A stretch of DNA of 64,000 nucleotides from Senegalimassilia anaerobia JC110 (lineage in GTDB: Bacteria; Actinomycetota; Coriobacteriia; Coriobacteriales; Eggerthellaceae): contig NZ_HE611014.1 of NCBI RefSeq assembly GCF_000236865.1, forward strand, positions 127,820 to 191,819, written 5' to 3'. The notes under the pieces were generated by a model. It was not told where the DNA came from and did not search any database. It saw only the letters and a list, made by a program, of their open reading frames with translations. Of the stretch, positions 3,454-39,466 are shown in pieces. Positions within the stretch are counted from its first letter, which is position 1, and each line of letters starts with the position of its first letter. Both the position numbers and the translations under genes were made by a program.

Positions 3454-3530
3454 GCGCCGTTACCTCAGCTGGATAGAGGGACTGACTACGAATCAGTACG
3501 TCGGGGGTTCGAATCCCTCACGGCGCACCA
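3454..3530 (+). tRNA. tRNA-Arg (ACG), copy 1
   Basis: A 77-nt cloverleaf with acceptor GCGCCGT/ACGGCGC, D-arm CCTC/GAGG, anticodon stem ACTGA/TCAGT with loop CTACGAA (anticodon ACG, read as ICG for CGU/CGC/CGA), T-loop TTCGAAT and encoded CCA. Identical to the copy 101 bases downstream. Confidence 0.97.
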
Positions 3531-3554: not shown

Positions 3555-3631
3555 GCGCCGTTACCTCAGCTGGATAGAGGGACTGACTACGAATCAGTAC
3601 GTCGGGGGTTCGAATCCCTCACGGCGCACCA
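3555..3631 (+). tRNA. tRNA-Arg (ACG), copy 2
   Basis: Base-for-base identical to the preceding tRNA-Arg, including the encoded CCA, with 24 bases between them. The last bases before each copy (ATGT) are also shared. Probably transcribed as one precursor from the upstream promoter. Confidence 0.97.
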
Positions 3632-3679: not shown

Positions 3680-3916
3680 GTTTTGTAGGCCAAAGAAAGG
3701 AACCCTGTTGAAGGTTCGAAAACCGAAACCTCACAGTATGTAGCCTTCCTTCGACTCCTCCCTTACGCTGGCAGCCGAAGGAGCAGGCTGCAGCGCGCTC
3801 TCGTTTGATAGAAGCTTTACGTGCCCATAACGCCATTACCGCATGGCGGACGTAGCATTATCCGGCACCTGTAAAAGCCCCTGCCGAACGCGAGCATGGA
3901 CAGTAAGGGAATCATC

Positions 3917-5269
3917 ATGCTCTATCTCTCTCAAATGCTGGGAAAACCGGTGGTCGACTGCACCGGTGAGAAAATCGGCACCGTATCTGACCTCGCCATC
4001 TCCACGGGCGAGGTGTTTCCGCGTATCACCAGCCTAGCCTTCCAAGGCCCGGGCAAGATCCCATTCATGATCTCATGGCGCAAGTACGTCGACGAATTCG
4101 ACGACGACGGCCTCACCCTGCAGGTCGAAGCGCATGATATCCGCTTCAGCTATCTGCAGCCCGACGAGGTGCTGCTCGCACGCGATCTTATGAACCGCCA
4201 GATCGTCGACACGCAGGGCCTGAAGGTCGTGCGTGTAAACGACCTGAAGCTTTCCGTATCCGGCTCCCAGCTTCGCTTGCTTGGCGCCGAGGTGGGCGTC
4301 CGCGGCATCCTGCGCGGCCTTGCTCCCTGGATCGAGCGCTCGGTGGTCTCCGTCGCCAAGGTCTTCGGCAAGAAGATCGACGAGCAGATCATCGCGTGGA
4401 ACTATATGGATCTGCTGGACCGCGACCTGTCCGAGGTGCAGCTATCCGTCACCCACAAGCGCTTGGACGAGCTGCACCCCGCCGACGTCGCGGACATTTT
4501 GGAGCAACTGGACCCGCAGCAGCGCGCAAACGTGTTCGAGCACCTCGACGACGCCCAGGCAACCGAGGCCATCTCGGAGATGGAGGACGAATACCAGTCC
4601 GACTTCATCGAAAGCTTGGACAACAAGCAGGCCGCTAACGTGCTGGGTAACATGGACCCGGACGACGCAGCCGACATCGTGCGCGACCTGTCCTACGAGC
4701 GCGCCGAAACGCTCCTGCGCCTTATGGGCGTGGAAGACGCAACGGAGATCCGCCGCCTGCTCGGCTACAAGGACGGCACCGCCGGCGGCATGATGACCAC
4801 GCAGTTCGTATCCGTCGCCGATACTGACACCGTCGGGCACGCCATCGAGGTGCTTCGCGAGCTTCCGGAGGACCATCCTTCCGTCCACTTCGTATACGTG
4901 CTGGATGAATACGACAAGCTGGTTGGCGTCTGCTCGCTGCGCACCTTGGTGCTCACCGATGATAAAACGCCCATGTCGAAGTGCATGTACGACGACCTGA
5001 TCACCGCAACGCCGGATGAAACCGAAGAGGACGTCTCCGCCGACATCTTCAAGTACGACCTGACCGCCATGCCCGTCGTGGACGAGCACGGCACGCTGCT
5101 TGGCATCGTCACCGTCGACGACGCCTGGGATGCCATCGAGGACGACGTCAGCAGCGACAAAACGAAAACTTCCGTTTGGAAGTGGGTAGGCATTGCGACC
5201 GGTGCCGTGATCTTCTTGATCCTCTACACCCTTGTCGTACTGCAAATCGCAGGATTCCATTGGAGGTAA
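3917..5269 (+). CDS. PRC-barrel / MgtE-N / CBS-pair protein with one C-terminal TM helix (putative Mg2+ sensor)
   Basis: A 450-aa protein built like the cytosolic half of the MgtE magnesium channel but without its five-helix pore. From the N-terminus: a PRC-barrel-like segment (about 1-80) and a possible second one (88-125); an acidic MgtE-N superhelix (about 185-285, repeats such as HPADVADILEQLDP and MDPDDAADIV); the MgtE-type linker into two CBS domains (TAGGMMTTQFV at about 288 onward; second CBS about 355-408); one membrane helix at 422-445. The frame also opens at ATG 3896, but AAGGGA at 3905-3910 fits ATG 3917. The stop is 3 bases before the NRMT transporter and overlaps its ribosome site, so the two are translationally coupled. 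Inferred role: Mg2+-responsive regulator of that transporter. No M-box riboswitch was recognised in 3680-3916. Confidence 0.85.
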   Translation: MLYLSQMLGKPVVDCTGEKIGTVSDLAISTGEVFPRITSLAFQGPGKIPFMISWRKYVDEFDDDGLTLQVEAHDIRFSYLQPDEVLLARDLMNRQIVDTQGLKVVRVNDLKLSVSGSQLRLLGAEVGVRGILRGLAPWIERSVVSVAKVFGKKIDEQIIAWNYMDLLDRDLSEVQLSVTHKRLDELHPADVADILEQLDPQQRANVFEHLDDAQATEAISEMEDEYQSDFIESLDNKQAANVLGNMDPDDAADIVRDLSYERAETLLRLMGVEDATEIRRLLGYKDGTAGGMMTTQFVSVADTDTVGHAIEVLRELPEDHPSVHFVYVLDEYDKLVGVCSLRTLVLTDDKTPMSKCMYDDLITATPDETEEDVSADIFKYDLTAMPVVDEHGTLLGIVTVDDAWDAIEDDVSSDKTKTSVWKWVGIATGAVIFLILYTLVVLQIAGFHWR

Positions 5270-5272
5270 GCC

Positions 5273-6655
5273 GTGGTTTTGAAGCAGAACGGCAAGACCG
5301 GGCGCGTTGCCGACATCGATTCACATAACCCGTTAGAGCGCAGCAGCTTCCACACCGGCGAGGCTACGCTGTCCGCCGAACAGCTTGCGGAAAAGCAGGC
5401 GCTCGAGCAAACCGGCGGCTCCAGCAAGCAGAAAAGCAAACTGCTGCTCATCTTGGCCGCCATGGGCCCGGGCATCGTCACGGCCATGGCCGGCAACGAT
5501 GCCGGCGGCATCTCAACCTACTCGACCGTTGGCGCGCAGTTCGGCTTCGCCACGCTGTGGGTCATCCCTATCATGTGCGTGCTGCTCATCGTGGTGGAAA
5601 TGACCGCCGCGAAGATGGGCGCCGTCACCGGCAAGGGCTTCGCCGCGCTCATCCGCGAATCCTTTGGCATCAGGCTCACGGCGCTGGCCATGCTCGCGCT
5701 GCTCATCGGCAACGTTTGCACCACGTTCTCCGAGTTCGCAGGCATCGCCTCGGGCATGGAGATGTTCGGCGTATCGAAATACATCGCCGTGCCCGTCGCC
5801 GCGATCGCCGTGTGGCTGCTCATCGTAGGAGGCAGCTACAAACGCGTGGAGAAAGTGTTCCTCATCTTGTCGCTAGTGTTCCTTACCTACGTGATCGCGG
5901 CGTTCTTGGCGCAGCCGAACTGGGAGAATGCCGCCATCAACACCATCGTTCCCCATGTGGTGTACCAGCAAAGCTTCGTTTCACTGGTCATATCCATGAT
6001 CGGCACCACCATTGCGCCCTGGATGATGTTCTTCAACCAGAGCAACGTGGTTGAGAAGGGCATCAAGCCCGACGAGCTGTTCACGCAGAAGGTCGATGTG
6101 GTCTCCGGCACCGTAGCTGCTTGCTTGGTCGCGTGGTTCATCATCGTCACCACGGGCACTGTGCTGTATCCGCAGGGAATCGTCATCAGCGACGCCGCCG
6201 ACGCGGCTGCTGCGCTGGCACCGTTCGCGGGCAAATATGCTGAGGCCCTGTTCGCCATCGGCCTGATCGCCGCATCGTTCTTGGCTGCATGCGTGCTTCC
6301 GCTGACCACGGCGTTCGTCATCTGCGAGGCATTCGGCTGGGAGGCCGGCGTGTCCTTCAAGTGGAAGGAAGCGCCGCTGTTCAAGAGCATCTTCACGTTC
6401 GTCATCGCGTTCTCGGCCGTCATCGTGCTCATCCCGAACATCGACCTTATGGGCGTCATGCTCATGGCTCAGTTCATCAACGGCCTGGTACTGCCGGTGC
6501 TGCTGGTGTTCATGGCGCTGATCTCGTCGGATAAGCGCGTCATGGGCAAGTTCAAGTCCGGCCGCGTGACGAAGGTACTCATCTGGGTCACCGTGGGCAT
6601 CGTCTCCGTGCTTACCGCGATTTTGCTGGTTATGCAGGTGTTTGGGATCGGGTAG
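5273..6655 (+). CDS. SLC11/NRAMP-family transporter of the NRMT (Mg2+) type
   Basis: A 460-aa LeuT-fold divalent-metal transporter with about eleven membrane helices after a polar N-terminus of about 55 residues. The canonical NRAMP DPGN motif of helix 1 reads D76-A-G-G79, and the MPHN motif of helix 6 reads A248-P-W-M251. Loss of the helix-1 Asn and of the helix-6 Met, which ligates transition metals, is the hallmark of NRAMP-related magnesium transporters characterised from Eggerthella lenta, so Mg2+ (perhaps also Mn2+) is the likely substrate. Start is GTG 5273 with GGAGGTAA overlapping the upstream stop. The 3' end overlaps the convergent Rrf2 gene by 26 bases. Family is certain; substrate is inferred from the two motifs. 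Confidence 0.93.
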   Translation: MVLKQNGKTGRVADIDSHNPLERSSFHTGEATLSAEQLAEKQALEQTGGSSKQKSKLLLILAAMGPGIVTAMAGNDAGGISTYSTVGAQFGFATLWVIPIMCVLLIVVEMTAAKMGAVTGKGFAALIRESFGIRLTALAMLALLIGNVCTTFSEFAGIASGMEMFGVSKYIAVPVAAIAVWLLIVGGSYKRVEKVFLILSLVFLTYVIAAFLAQPNWENAAINTIVPHVVYQQSFVSLVISMIGTTIAPWMMFFNQSNVVEKGIKPDELFTQKVDVVSGTVAACLVAWFIIVTTGTVLYPQGIVISDAADAAAALAPFAGKYAEALFAIGLIAASFLAACVLPLTTAFVICEAFGWEAGVSFKWKEAPLFKSIFTFVIAFSAVIVLIPNIDLMGVMLMAQFINGLVLPVLLVFMALISSDKRVMGKFKSGRVTKVLIWVTVGIVSVLTAILLVMQVFGIG

Positions 6656-7076
6656 AACCGGAAGCGGTGTCGGATTCTTTGCCGTGGATGCGTTCGATCA
6701 TATTCTGAAGGGTGATTGAGGACATGTACTCCTCCATTTCGCGTTCGACCGCGGAACATGCAGCAGTGATGTCCTGCAGCAGATCGCTCGCATCCTCCGC
6801 TTCCTTGCGCTCCGCTCGCAGACGGTCGTTCTGCAGCGCGTTAAAGATGTCGAGCATGCTGATTTCGGAAGCGTCCTTCGCAAGGCTATAGCCGCCGTTT
6901 TTGCCCGGGCGCGCATGGACGATCCCGGCATTGCGCAGCAGCTGCGCCAGCTGGATCAGATAATCGCGCGGAATGGACATCTCATCGGCCACCTCGCGAG
7001 ACGAGCATATCGAGCCCTTTTCCGCTAGATACAACACCGCGCGCATCCCATATTCGACCGAAGCCTTGAAGTGCAC
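6630..7076 (-). CDS. Rrf2-family transcriptional regulator
   Basis: Winged-helix repressor of about 148 aa. Visible family features are VEYGMRAVLYLAE at the N-terminus, the recognition-helix region SREVADEMSIPRDYL and the wing RPGKNGGYSL. I chose GTG 7076, which has GAGGGA just upstream and gives the usual Rrf2 length; the frame also extends to ATG 7130 (166 aa). Only one Cys (in ITAACSAVE) remains where Fe-S Rrf2 proteins (IscR, NsrR) carry three, so an Fe-S sensor is unlikely. It is divergent from the folate gene downstream and convergent with the NRMT gene. Ligand and targets are unknown. Confidence 0.88.
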   Translation of the reverse strand: MHFKASVEYGMRAVLYLAEKGSICSSREVADEMSIPRDYLIQLAQLLRNAGIVHARPGKNGGYSLAKDASEISMLDIFNALQNDRLRAERKEAEDASDLLQDITAACSAVEREMEEYMSSITLQNMIERIHGKESDTASGSTRSQTPA

Positions 7077-7331
7077 CGTTTCCCTCGTTCCTATTTCGTG
7101 TTCGATGTTCCAAGCGGGGACGGATGACATGCACCTTCCCTGTTTTCTTCGTCAACGAAATCCCTGGTCATCTGCTATAGAGGCTTGCGCAAACACATTG
7201 GAGCCCAGTGCATCGCGATTTCGCGCCCATGCTGAGGCGGTGGGCGGTGAAGCGATGCCTGCCGGAGCCTCGGCTGGGTGCACCGCCGCCTCGTTTCCTC
7301 GTTGTTGTCATAGCCATCGCCAGACCCAACG

Positions 7332-36733: not shown

Positions 36734-39466
36734 CTACTCTTCCATCTCGTCGATGGACGACTCGTCCAGCTCTTCGGCGCCATCGGCATTTGCGGCGCAT
36801 TTCTTCTTGCCGTGGGCGGCGATGGCGACGGCGGTCACGCGATCATCCTCGGCAACGTTCATGACGCGGACGCCCTGCGTGGAGCGGCCGAGCTCGGAGA
36901 TGCCCTCGACGGGAGTGCGCACCACGACGCCCTCCTCGGACATGATCATGATCTCATCGTCGGCACCGACGATCTTCATGGCAGCCAACAAGCCCTTCTT
37001 CTCCGTCATGGTGATGGTGAAGACGCCCTGACCGCCGCGATGGTGCGACGGATACTCGGAGATGGGCGTACGCTTGCCGTACCCCTTCTCGGTGATGACG
37101 AACAGATCGGTCTCGGGGCGAGCGATCTCCATGCCGAGCACCTTGGCATCGGCCGGCGCGTTCATGCCGCGCACACCCATGGTGCCGCGGCCCATGGCGC
37201 GCACTTCGTCCTCGGGCCACATGATGGCCTTGCCGGCGGACGACACCATGATGACGTTCTCGCCCTGAGCCACGCGGCGCACGCTGATAAGGCGGTCGCC
37301 GTCCTTGAGGTTGATGGCGATAAGGCCGTCACGGCGCGTACGGTCGTACTGCTCCATGGACGTCTTCTTCACCATGCCGTGCTCGGTGGCGAACATAAGG
37401 TATTCGTCGGTCGGGAAGTCCTTCGTCGCGATGACGGCGCTGATGGTCTCGCCCTTCTCGAGCGGCAACAGGTTCACGATGGCCGTGCCGCGCGCATGAC
37501 GGGATGCCTCGGGCAGCTCGTAGACCTTCAGACGATATACCTTGCCCTTCGTTGAGAAGAACAGCATGAAGGAGTGCGTGGACGCGACGAACAGGTGCTC
37601 GACGTAGTCGTTATCCTTCAAGTTCACCGCCTGCATGCCCTTGCCGCCGCGCTTCTGCTGACGGTACGTGGCAACGGGCAGGCGCTTGACGTAGCCGGCC
37701 TTCGTGACCGTGACCACCATGCTCTCCTCGGCGATGAGGTCTTCGACGTCCAAGTCCTTGGCGGCATCGGAGAGCTGCGTTCTGCGGGGGGTGTCGAACT
37801 TCTTCTTGATCTCCTGCAGCTCCTCCTTGATGATGTCGCGCACCAGCTGAGGGTCGGAGAGCACGCGGTTGTAGTACGCAATCTTCTCGCGCAGCTCTTC
37901 CAACTCGGACTGGATCTTCTCGCGCTCTAAACCGGTCAGGCGGCGCAGGCGCATCTCCAGGATGGCCGTGGTCTGCTTGTCGGTCAGGCCGAAGCGCTCG
38001 GTCAGTCGAGCCGCCGCCTCCTTGTCGGTTTGCGAGGAGCGGATGATGCTGATGACCTCGTCGATGTGGTCGAGTGCAACCACATAGCCTTCCAGGATAT
38101 GGGCGCGCTCCTCGGCTTTGGAGAGCTCGTAGCGCGTACGACGCACGATAACGTCTTCCTGGTGGGCGATGTAGTAGTGCAGCGTCTCCTTCAGAGAGAG
38201 CACGCGGGGCACGCCGTCGACGAGCGCCAACATGATGACGCCGAAGCCCACCTGCAGCTGCGTGTGCTTATACAGCTTGTTGAGCACCACCTGCGGGATG
38301 GCGTCCTTCTTCAGCTCGATGATGATGTCGATGCCGTGGCGGTCGGCGCCGTCATGGATGTTCGAGATCTCGGGAAGCTTCTTCTCGCGAACCAGCTCGC
38401 CGAGCTTCTCAAGCAGGCGCTGACGGTTCACCTGGTACGGGATCTCCGTGACCACGATGGAGCTCTTGCCGTTCTTGCCCTCTTCGATCTTGCACTTCGC
38501 GCGCACGGTAAGGCTGCCGCGACCCGTTTCATAGGCGTCCAGGATGCCCTTCTTGCCCATGATGATGCCGCCGGTCGGGAAATCAGGACCGGGAAGTGCC
38601 GTCATAAGCTCGGCGGTGGTCACCTCGGGGTTGTCGAGCATCATGCACGTGGCGTCGATGGTCTCGCCAAGGTTATGCGGCGGGATGTTGGTGGCCATGC
38701 CAACGGCGATGCCGTTGGAGCCGTTGACCAGCAGGCTGGGGAAACGCGCGGGCAGGACCGTGGGTTCTTCCAGGCTTTCGTCATAGTTGGGCTGGAAGTC
38801 AACCGTTTCCTTGTCGAGATCGCGCAGCAGCTCCATGGCCGCCTTGCCCAGACGCGCCTCGGTGTAACGCATTGCTGCTGCCGAGTCGCCGTCGATGGAG
38901 CCGAAGTTGCCATGGCCGTCGATAAGCGGCACACGCATGCTGAACGGCTGGGCCAAGCGCACCATGGTGTCGTACACGGCGGAGTCGCCGTGCGGGTGAT
39001 ACTTGCCGATAACGTCGCCGACGGTACGGGCCGACTTCATATGCGGACGGTTCGGCGTATAGCCGGACTCGTTCATGGCGTACAGGATGCGGCGGTGGAC
39101 CGGCTTCAGGCCATCGCGCACGTCGGGCAGGGCGCGGCTGACGATGACGCTCATGGAGTACTCCAGGAACGAAGAAGCCATCTCCTTGCCCAGATATGCC
39201 GCGCGAACGGTGGTCCCCTCGCCGCCATTTGCGTCCTCGATGATGGAGCCGTGGGGGTTGGCGACGGTAGACATGTCGATAAGCGAGCGGGCCTTGTCCT
39301 CTTCGGACACCGGGCCCGACGTTACCGTATGGCCGGGCTCGGGCTGCTCGACGTCCTGCTCGCCGGCGTCCGCCGCGCCTTCCTCGGCGGCATCGACCAG
39401 GCGCTTCAGGTCGTCGGGAAGCTCCTCGCCGCCCTGACCATCGCGGTTGTCAGTGTTATCTGCCAT
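36734..39466 (-). CDS. gyrA: DNA gyrase subunit A
   Basis: A 910-aa breakage-reunion subunit. Catalytic Tyr201 lies in [10 protein letters not shown]. The quinolone region reads [11 protein letters not shown], with Ser162 and Asp166 at the positions of E. coli Ser83 and Asp87, so the unmutated form. The C-terminal beta-pinwheel carries the GyrA-box motif QQKRGGKGM. About 79 residues precede the usual N-terminus, an acidic low-complexity stretch; the protein is therefore longer than most GyrA. AGGAG before ATG 39466 overlaps the gyrB stop region (9-base gap). Confidence 0.97.

Follow-up and report, generated by a model that had tools for sequence, protein, structure and literature searches.

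Results

A sensor gene and an NRMT-type transporter gene in close succession

The stretch of DNA analysed here, called the window, comprises 64,000 nucleotides of the genome of Senegalimassilia anaerobia JC110. On its plus strand, a gene for a 450-residue protein (3917-5269), hereafter the sensor, is followed after 3 bases by a transporter gene on the same strand. The likely start of the sensor is the ATG at 3917, preceded by AAGGG at 3905-3909, and the TAA stop lies at 5267-5269; an alternative in-frame ATG upstream, at 3896, would give a protein of 457 residues. The sensor begins with a PRC-barrel domain (residues 1-80; 3917-4156), matched by Pfam PRC over residues 2-63 with an E-value of 1.5e-12 and strand-rich in the structural model, and continues with a second region (residues 81-135; 4157-4321), judged PRC-like from reading of the sequence. 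An MgtE_N domain (residues 186-286; 4472-4774; 2.1e-29) and a CBS pair (residues 290-410; 4784-5146; 1.5e-15) follow, and then the equivalent of the MgtE plug helix (5147-5191) and a single hydrophobic helix at the C-terminus, presumed to be a membrane anchor (5192-5254). A Pfam search of the protein gave no match to the MgtE pore domain PF01769. Since this domain is missing and only one hydrophobic helix is present, the sensor is not an MgtE channel.

In the AlphaFold model of the sensor alone, the N and CBS domains were predicted well, the second PRC-like region poorly (pLDDT under 50 at residues 78-126), and the C-terminus formed an unbroken helix from residue 400 to 444. The top structural matches of the modelled N and CBS domains were MgtE structures, with Z around 18 (2yvy), and the relative orientation of the domains differed (rmsd around 13 Å). 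The nearest sensor homologs are from Eggerthellaceae, one of them 93% identical (locus L001).

The transporter gene (5273-6655, plus strand) starts with GTG and encodes a 460-residue protein of the SLC11 family (Pfam Nramp, 2.3e-81); its likely ribosome-binding site, GGAGG at 5262-5266, lies within the 3' end of the sensor gene. Among proteins of solved structure, EleNRMT (7qia) matches it best (E-value 1e-221, 84.6% identity over 410 residues). The helix 1 motif NDAGG (5495-5509, in the context AGNDAGGI) is of the D-A-G-G type of the NRMT clade instead of D-P-G-N, and the helix 6 motif APWM (6014-6025, in TIAPWMMFF) likewise replaces M-P-H. The protein is not a canonical Nramp or MntH, as its motifs differ and it scored 136 bits against PRK00701, whose cut-off is 430. 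The original prediction, made from the letters alone, had described just such a couple, a PRC/MgtE-N/CBS-pair protein with one C-terminal helix and no pore, and 3 bases further an SLC11 gene with D-A-G-G and A-P-W-M motifs; Pfam and the AlphaFold model confirmed the former, and the transporter gene proved to be as described. We think it probable that the pair constitutes a single operon serving the regulated uptake of Mg2+. No M-box riboswitch was found at the window, even at a relaxed threshold, and promoter and terminator scans gave nothing beyond chance.

Several other features of the window were recorded. Two tRNA-Arg(ACG) genes (3454-3530 and 3555-3631) lie directly upstream of the sensor, and tRNA genes also precede the sensor of locus L161. 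The gene of an Rrf2-family regulator on the minus strand (6630-7130) shares the final 26 bases of the NRMT gene. The GyrA reading frame (36737-39466, minus strand) begins about 89 residues ahead of the start of the family model, which may reflect a misassigned start or a genuine extension. The window also includes dnaA, gyrB and dnaB.

The gene pair is conserved in the Actinomycetota sampled and recurs on plasmids

Part of this arrangement is known. Shin et al. (2014, PLoS Genet, PMC4072509) reported that most NrmT genes adjoin a gene homologous to the cytoplasmic domain of MgtE and that many such operons carry an M-box riboswitch, and they proposed that the MgtE-like fragment might act in feedback regulation or as a metal chaperone. 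They describe the same gene pair and had already raised the idea that NrmT is under feedback from the cytoplasm, so the novelty suggested in the original prediction is not supported: the pair was known, and the feedback idea stood as published speculation. The main text of PMC4072509 describes homology to the cytoplasmic domain only and does not mention a PRC-barrel; it also lacks the site conservation, the long form with a dead pore, the PRC-only neighbour and the fusion to MgtA. These four, together with the survey of the pair and the finding that no other known Mg2+ importer was detected in the window's genome, are what is new here. We found no description of an MgtE with a PRC-barrel, of a dead-pore MgtE or of an MgtE_N-MgtA fusion in the open-licence literature.

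In all 66 complete Eggerthellaceae loci, an NRMT gene lies directly downstream of the sensor on the same strand, which argues that the arrangement is not due to chance. Two Eggerthellaceae genomes (G027 and G196; loci L212 and L220) have neither NRMT nor sensor, and their only Nramp carries GPGT/VPY motifs.

We then turned to the phylum. A search of 396 Actinomycetota genomes for MgtE_N and Nramp gave 46 close same-strand pairs among the matches listed, and the loci compared were these linked pairs plus a set of unlinked Nramps. Among the matches listed in this sample, a PRC or PRC-MgtE_N protein neighboured 66 of 67 NRMT-like transporters and all six Nramps of the NDAGG/S-TPYM type, as against none of 17 canonical Nramps and none of three with NDP[SA]G motifs. 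The sole NRMT-like exception sits near a contig end, and the sensor of the same genome lies at another contig end. When pooled, again among the matches listed, 72 of 73 NRMT-type transporters had a PRC-type neighbour compared to 0 of 20 other Nramps (Fisher, 2e-19); the linked loci were chosen for being linked, so the percentages describe this sample only, and relatedness inflates the significance of the Fisher test. The pair is thus strongly conserved in other genomes, as the original prediction required.

The linkage recurs on plasmids. In the four records opened, from Alicyclobacillus, Citrobacter, Leifsonia and Rhodococcus, the sensor adjoins an NRMT-type Nramp in every case, so that plasmid linkage spans Bacillota, Pseudomonadota and Actinomycetota and occurs in both gene orders. 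On the conjugative plasmid pPSV of Citrobacter freundii (locus L282), the two genes lie beside genes for an ArsR regulator, a Tn3 transposase and a P-type ATPase for heavy metals, and a similar match was seen in Serratia (CP068396).

An M-box (RF00380, ykoK) was detected upstream of the sensor-NRMT operons of six relatives (L133, L136, L138, L139, L140 and L141), of which L138 belongs to the same class as the window's organism, and was absent at the other relatives scanned. When regions of the sensor were compared with NRMT by the mirror-tree method, all of them correlated and none stood out, a signal no greater than co-inheritance would give. Five NRMT-like loci (L153, L159, L195, L201 and L203) have Gly in place of the Asp in helix 1 (AGNGASGI and similar) and keep the partner gene.

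A PRC region stays beside NRMT even where the sensor domains do not

Where NRMT is unlinked to MgtE_N, it is adjoined, usually on its downstream side, by a separate PRC-type protein, mostly of 190-220 residues, and the genome encodes a long PRC-MgtE form elsewhere. Such a protein corresponds to the first PRC domain and the second PRC-like region of the sensor taken together. Counting also loci that have a long sensor upstream, PRC-type proteins of this kind, mostly of 190-240 residues, directly adjoin NRMT in L134, L144, L147, L148, L185-L194, L196-L200, L202, L204 and L205. Within the Eggerthellaceae sensors, the second PRC-like region is the best-conserved part (mean 0.93). As the PRC region is constant beside NRMT and most conserved in Eggerthellaceae, we infer that it is the part by which the sensor docks on the transporter.

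These loci also bear on whether the two proteins meet at all. The genes could share an operon for divalent metal homeostasis while the sensor acts on another target, and the many genomes of one clade in which the MgtE_N/CBS part is unlinked to NRMT would fit such an arrangement. However, the unlinked NRMTs of that very clade still adjoin a PRC-only protein, and the linkage recurs on plasmids of three phyla in both gene orders. We therefore regard a shared operon devoid of contact as improbable and retain docking through the PRC region as the preferred reading.

The Mg2+-sensing sites of MgtE are kept

The N domain and CBS pair of the sensor are homologous to those of TtMgtE (PDB 2yvx and 2zy9; PMC5882242); compared to TtMgtE, the sensor has an additional N-terminal PRC region, lacks the pore and is encoded by its own gene. 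Site residues were assigned by alignment to the TtMgtE chains, those of MgtE_N included, with the assignment of sites Mg2 to Mg7 taken from PMC5882242. TtMgtE residues E59, D91 and D95 correspond to E217, D249 and D253 in the MgtE_N domain of the sensor; D226, D247, D250 and E255 correspond to D381, D402, D405 and D410 in the CBS pair; and E258 and D259 correspond to S413 and D414 in the plug-helix equivalent. E255 is a plug-helix acid for which no site assignment was found there. Eight of the nine positions are thus acidic in the window sensor, the exception being E258 (site Mg2), occupied by Ser413. The Mg4 pair, D91/D247, is Asp in all 153 Actinomycetota sequences compared; the Citrobacter plasmid sensor (L282) has Ala at D91 and has lost this Mg4 Asp. 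Among the sensors with one C-terminal helix, the six core sites carry an acidic residue in 99%, compared to 50% for random acidic columns (P=0.0006). That the partner should retain the acidic sites of MgtE had been anticipated, and this was borne out.

The ATP-stacking Phe227 is lost, which might have pointed to a different ligand; this idea was dropped, as Leu also occupies the position in 19 of 22 ordinary MgtE proteins of the same phylum.

The sensor appears to derive from an MgtE with a dead pore

Partners of NRMT fall into three types: soluble proteins of about 415-440 residues (group A), the one-helix form found at the window (group B) and long forms of about 605-700 residues (group C). 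The membrane domain of the long forms is related to that of MgtE. The alignment of the L138 protein to 2yvx extends into the membrane domain, and PF01769 matched above the cut-off in L094, L231 and L240 and just below it in L144; it was not found in several long forms of Coriobacteriales. All 22 ordinary MgtE proteins have the pore Asp, D432, and none of 52 long forms does; the register was checked with an ordinary MgtE against 2yvx, and the most diverged Coriobacteriales forms rest on weak alignment. Of the 35 linked long forms, one retains the conserved Gln of the filter, and none retains the conserved Gly.

Could the long partners nonetheless be working MgtE channels, forming with NRMT two redundant importers, with the short form having merely decayed? 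Their membrane domain is MgtE-related, as the 2yvx and PF01769 matches attest, and the three plug-helix acids are intact in all 52 long forms. The missing pore Asp nevertheless makes a working channel unlikely, the filter Gln and Gly are replaced in nearly all linked forms, and the sensor parts of the short form are highly conserved, unlike what decay would be expected to leave. We consider this alternative highly unlikely.

The plug-helix acids are lost in the soluble form, and the one-helix form is in between. In a tree of the N-CBS core, several deep splits of which have only moderate support, the one-helix form is nested among the long forms, and its nearest outgroup (L066) is long, with a degenerate membrane domain still present. 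Because of this nesting among forms with degenerate pores, the Eggerthellaceae sensor is best read, from sequence comparison, as a pore-dead MgtE trimmed to one helix. Should its pore indeed be dead, the long form would clearly exemplify a channel that came to regulate an unrelated transporter as its subunit.

The original prediction held that a sensor module had been separated from its channel and that it regulates the transporter through a membrane anchor. The separation is well supported, since the acidic sites are kept, the pair is strongly conserved and the partners in sister lineages are MgtE-derived with a degenerate pore. The anchor stood in part: the window protein does have one C-terminal helix, but an anchor is not essential, as many partners are soluble (group A and, within the Eggerthellaceae set, L059) or carry a whole MgtE-like membrane domain.

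A model in which the Mg2+-loaded sensor restrains NRMT

EleNRMT of Eggerthella lenta has been purified and its structure solved, and it carries both Mg2+ and Mn2+ with no coupling to H+ (Ramanadane et al. 2022, eLife, PMC8806188). This protein, 85% identical to the window transporter, was studied alone, and a text search of the paper found no MgtE-like partner. As import is not coupled to protons, Mg2+ would go on entering, driven by the membrane potential, unless a brake were present. The sites of MgtE gate by Mg2+ (PMC5882242), and a comparable gating can be pictured for the pair. High cytosolic Mg2+ would compact the N-CBS unit, as in MgtE, while the tandem PRC region would dock the sensor onto NRMT and the C-terminal helix would hold it at the membrane; docked and compacted, the sensor would keep NRMT inactive. 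The anatomy and the co-occurrence are observed, and on this footing we hold it reasonably probable that contact, docking and inhibition combine in this way, the Mg2+-folded sensor braking NRMT. Among the points against this model are that E258 is Ser in the window sensor, that the soluble partners lack all three plug acids, that the mirror-tree signal does not exceed co-inheritance and that the window has no M-box. A single-chain AlphaFold model of sensor and NRMT, read in frame across the stop codon with 28 in-frame sequences, was uninformative, with a pLDDT of 54 and a pTM of 0.42.

The partner is not an obligate subunit, since NRMT is functional without it both in vitro (PMC8806188) and in vivo (PMC4072509). 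For the Acidobacterium capsulatum pair, co-expression gave no further rescue, and its transporter behaved as a Mn2+ importer (PMC4072509); that experiment scored gain of growth, not braking. A partner that serves as an assembly or stability factor, or as the metal chaperone that Shin et al. (PMC4072509) offered as an alternative, would use its MgtE-like fold for protein contact rather than for feedback. PRC-only neighbours indicate that a role in protein contact does not require the sensor domains, and EleNRMT alone was rather unstable in detergent (PMC8806188). Yet the genomes with a PRC-only neighbour still have a long sensor elsewhere, the acidic sites are kept far above background, and NRMT works alone; we find such a role unlikely and continue to favour a brake.

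Instead of Mg2+, the sensor could also respond to Mn2+ or to a range of divalent ions. The A. capsulatum transporter imports Mn2+ despite its partner, and EleNRMT carries this ion too. Against this, the operons of six relatives are preceded by the M-box, a Mg2+ riboswitch, and MgtE sites respond to Mg2+ (PMC5882242). Moreover, in the genome of S. anaerobia JC110 (99.96% complete), no MgtE pore, CorA or MgtA was detected at the thresholds used. A response to ions other than Mg2+ alone has, in our estimate, a low probability, and Mg2+ remains the ion that we favour. As this genome showed no further family of known Mg2+ importers, the pair may be essential in such Eggerthellaceae. The second Nramp of the genome carries GPGT/VPY motifs and has no PRC-type neighbour. 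A conserved and separable MgtE-type sensor with a candidate docking region bears on the question of what keeps uncoupled import by NRMT from overloading the cell with Mg2+.

The same sensor fused to MgtA

At two loci, L248 (1481-5434) and L249 (1493-5446), both on the minus strand, a single protein of 1318 residues carries the PRC-MgtE_N-CBS sensor at its N-terminus (residues 1-410), followed by a full MgtA-type ATPase, a transporter unrelated to NRMT. The ATPase part scored 1099 and 1077 bits, respectively, against TIGR01524, whose cut-off is 611, and the fusions account for 2 of the 53 MgtA proteins above the cut-off among the matches listed. They suggest that the sensor is transplantable. 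Tentatively, PRC-MgtE_N-CBS might be a portable Mg2+-gating module, which arose from an MgtE with a dead pore but with its plug acids and Mg2+ sites retained, became a regulatory subunit of an SLC11 transporter, was later trimmed to a single helix or a soluble form and was also fused to MgtA; one type of sensor would then control three structurally unrelated Mg2+ importers, if its origin in MgtE is counted. In the tree, the fused sensor falls inside the group of NRMT partners, with a support of 0.74 for the sister relation.
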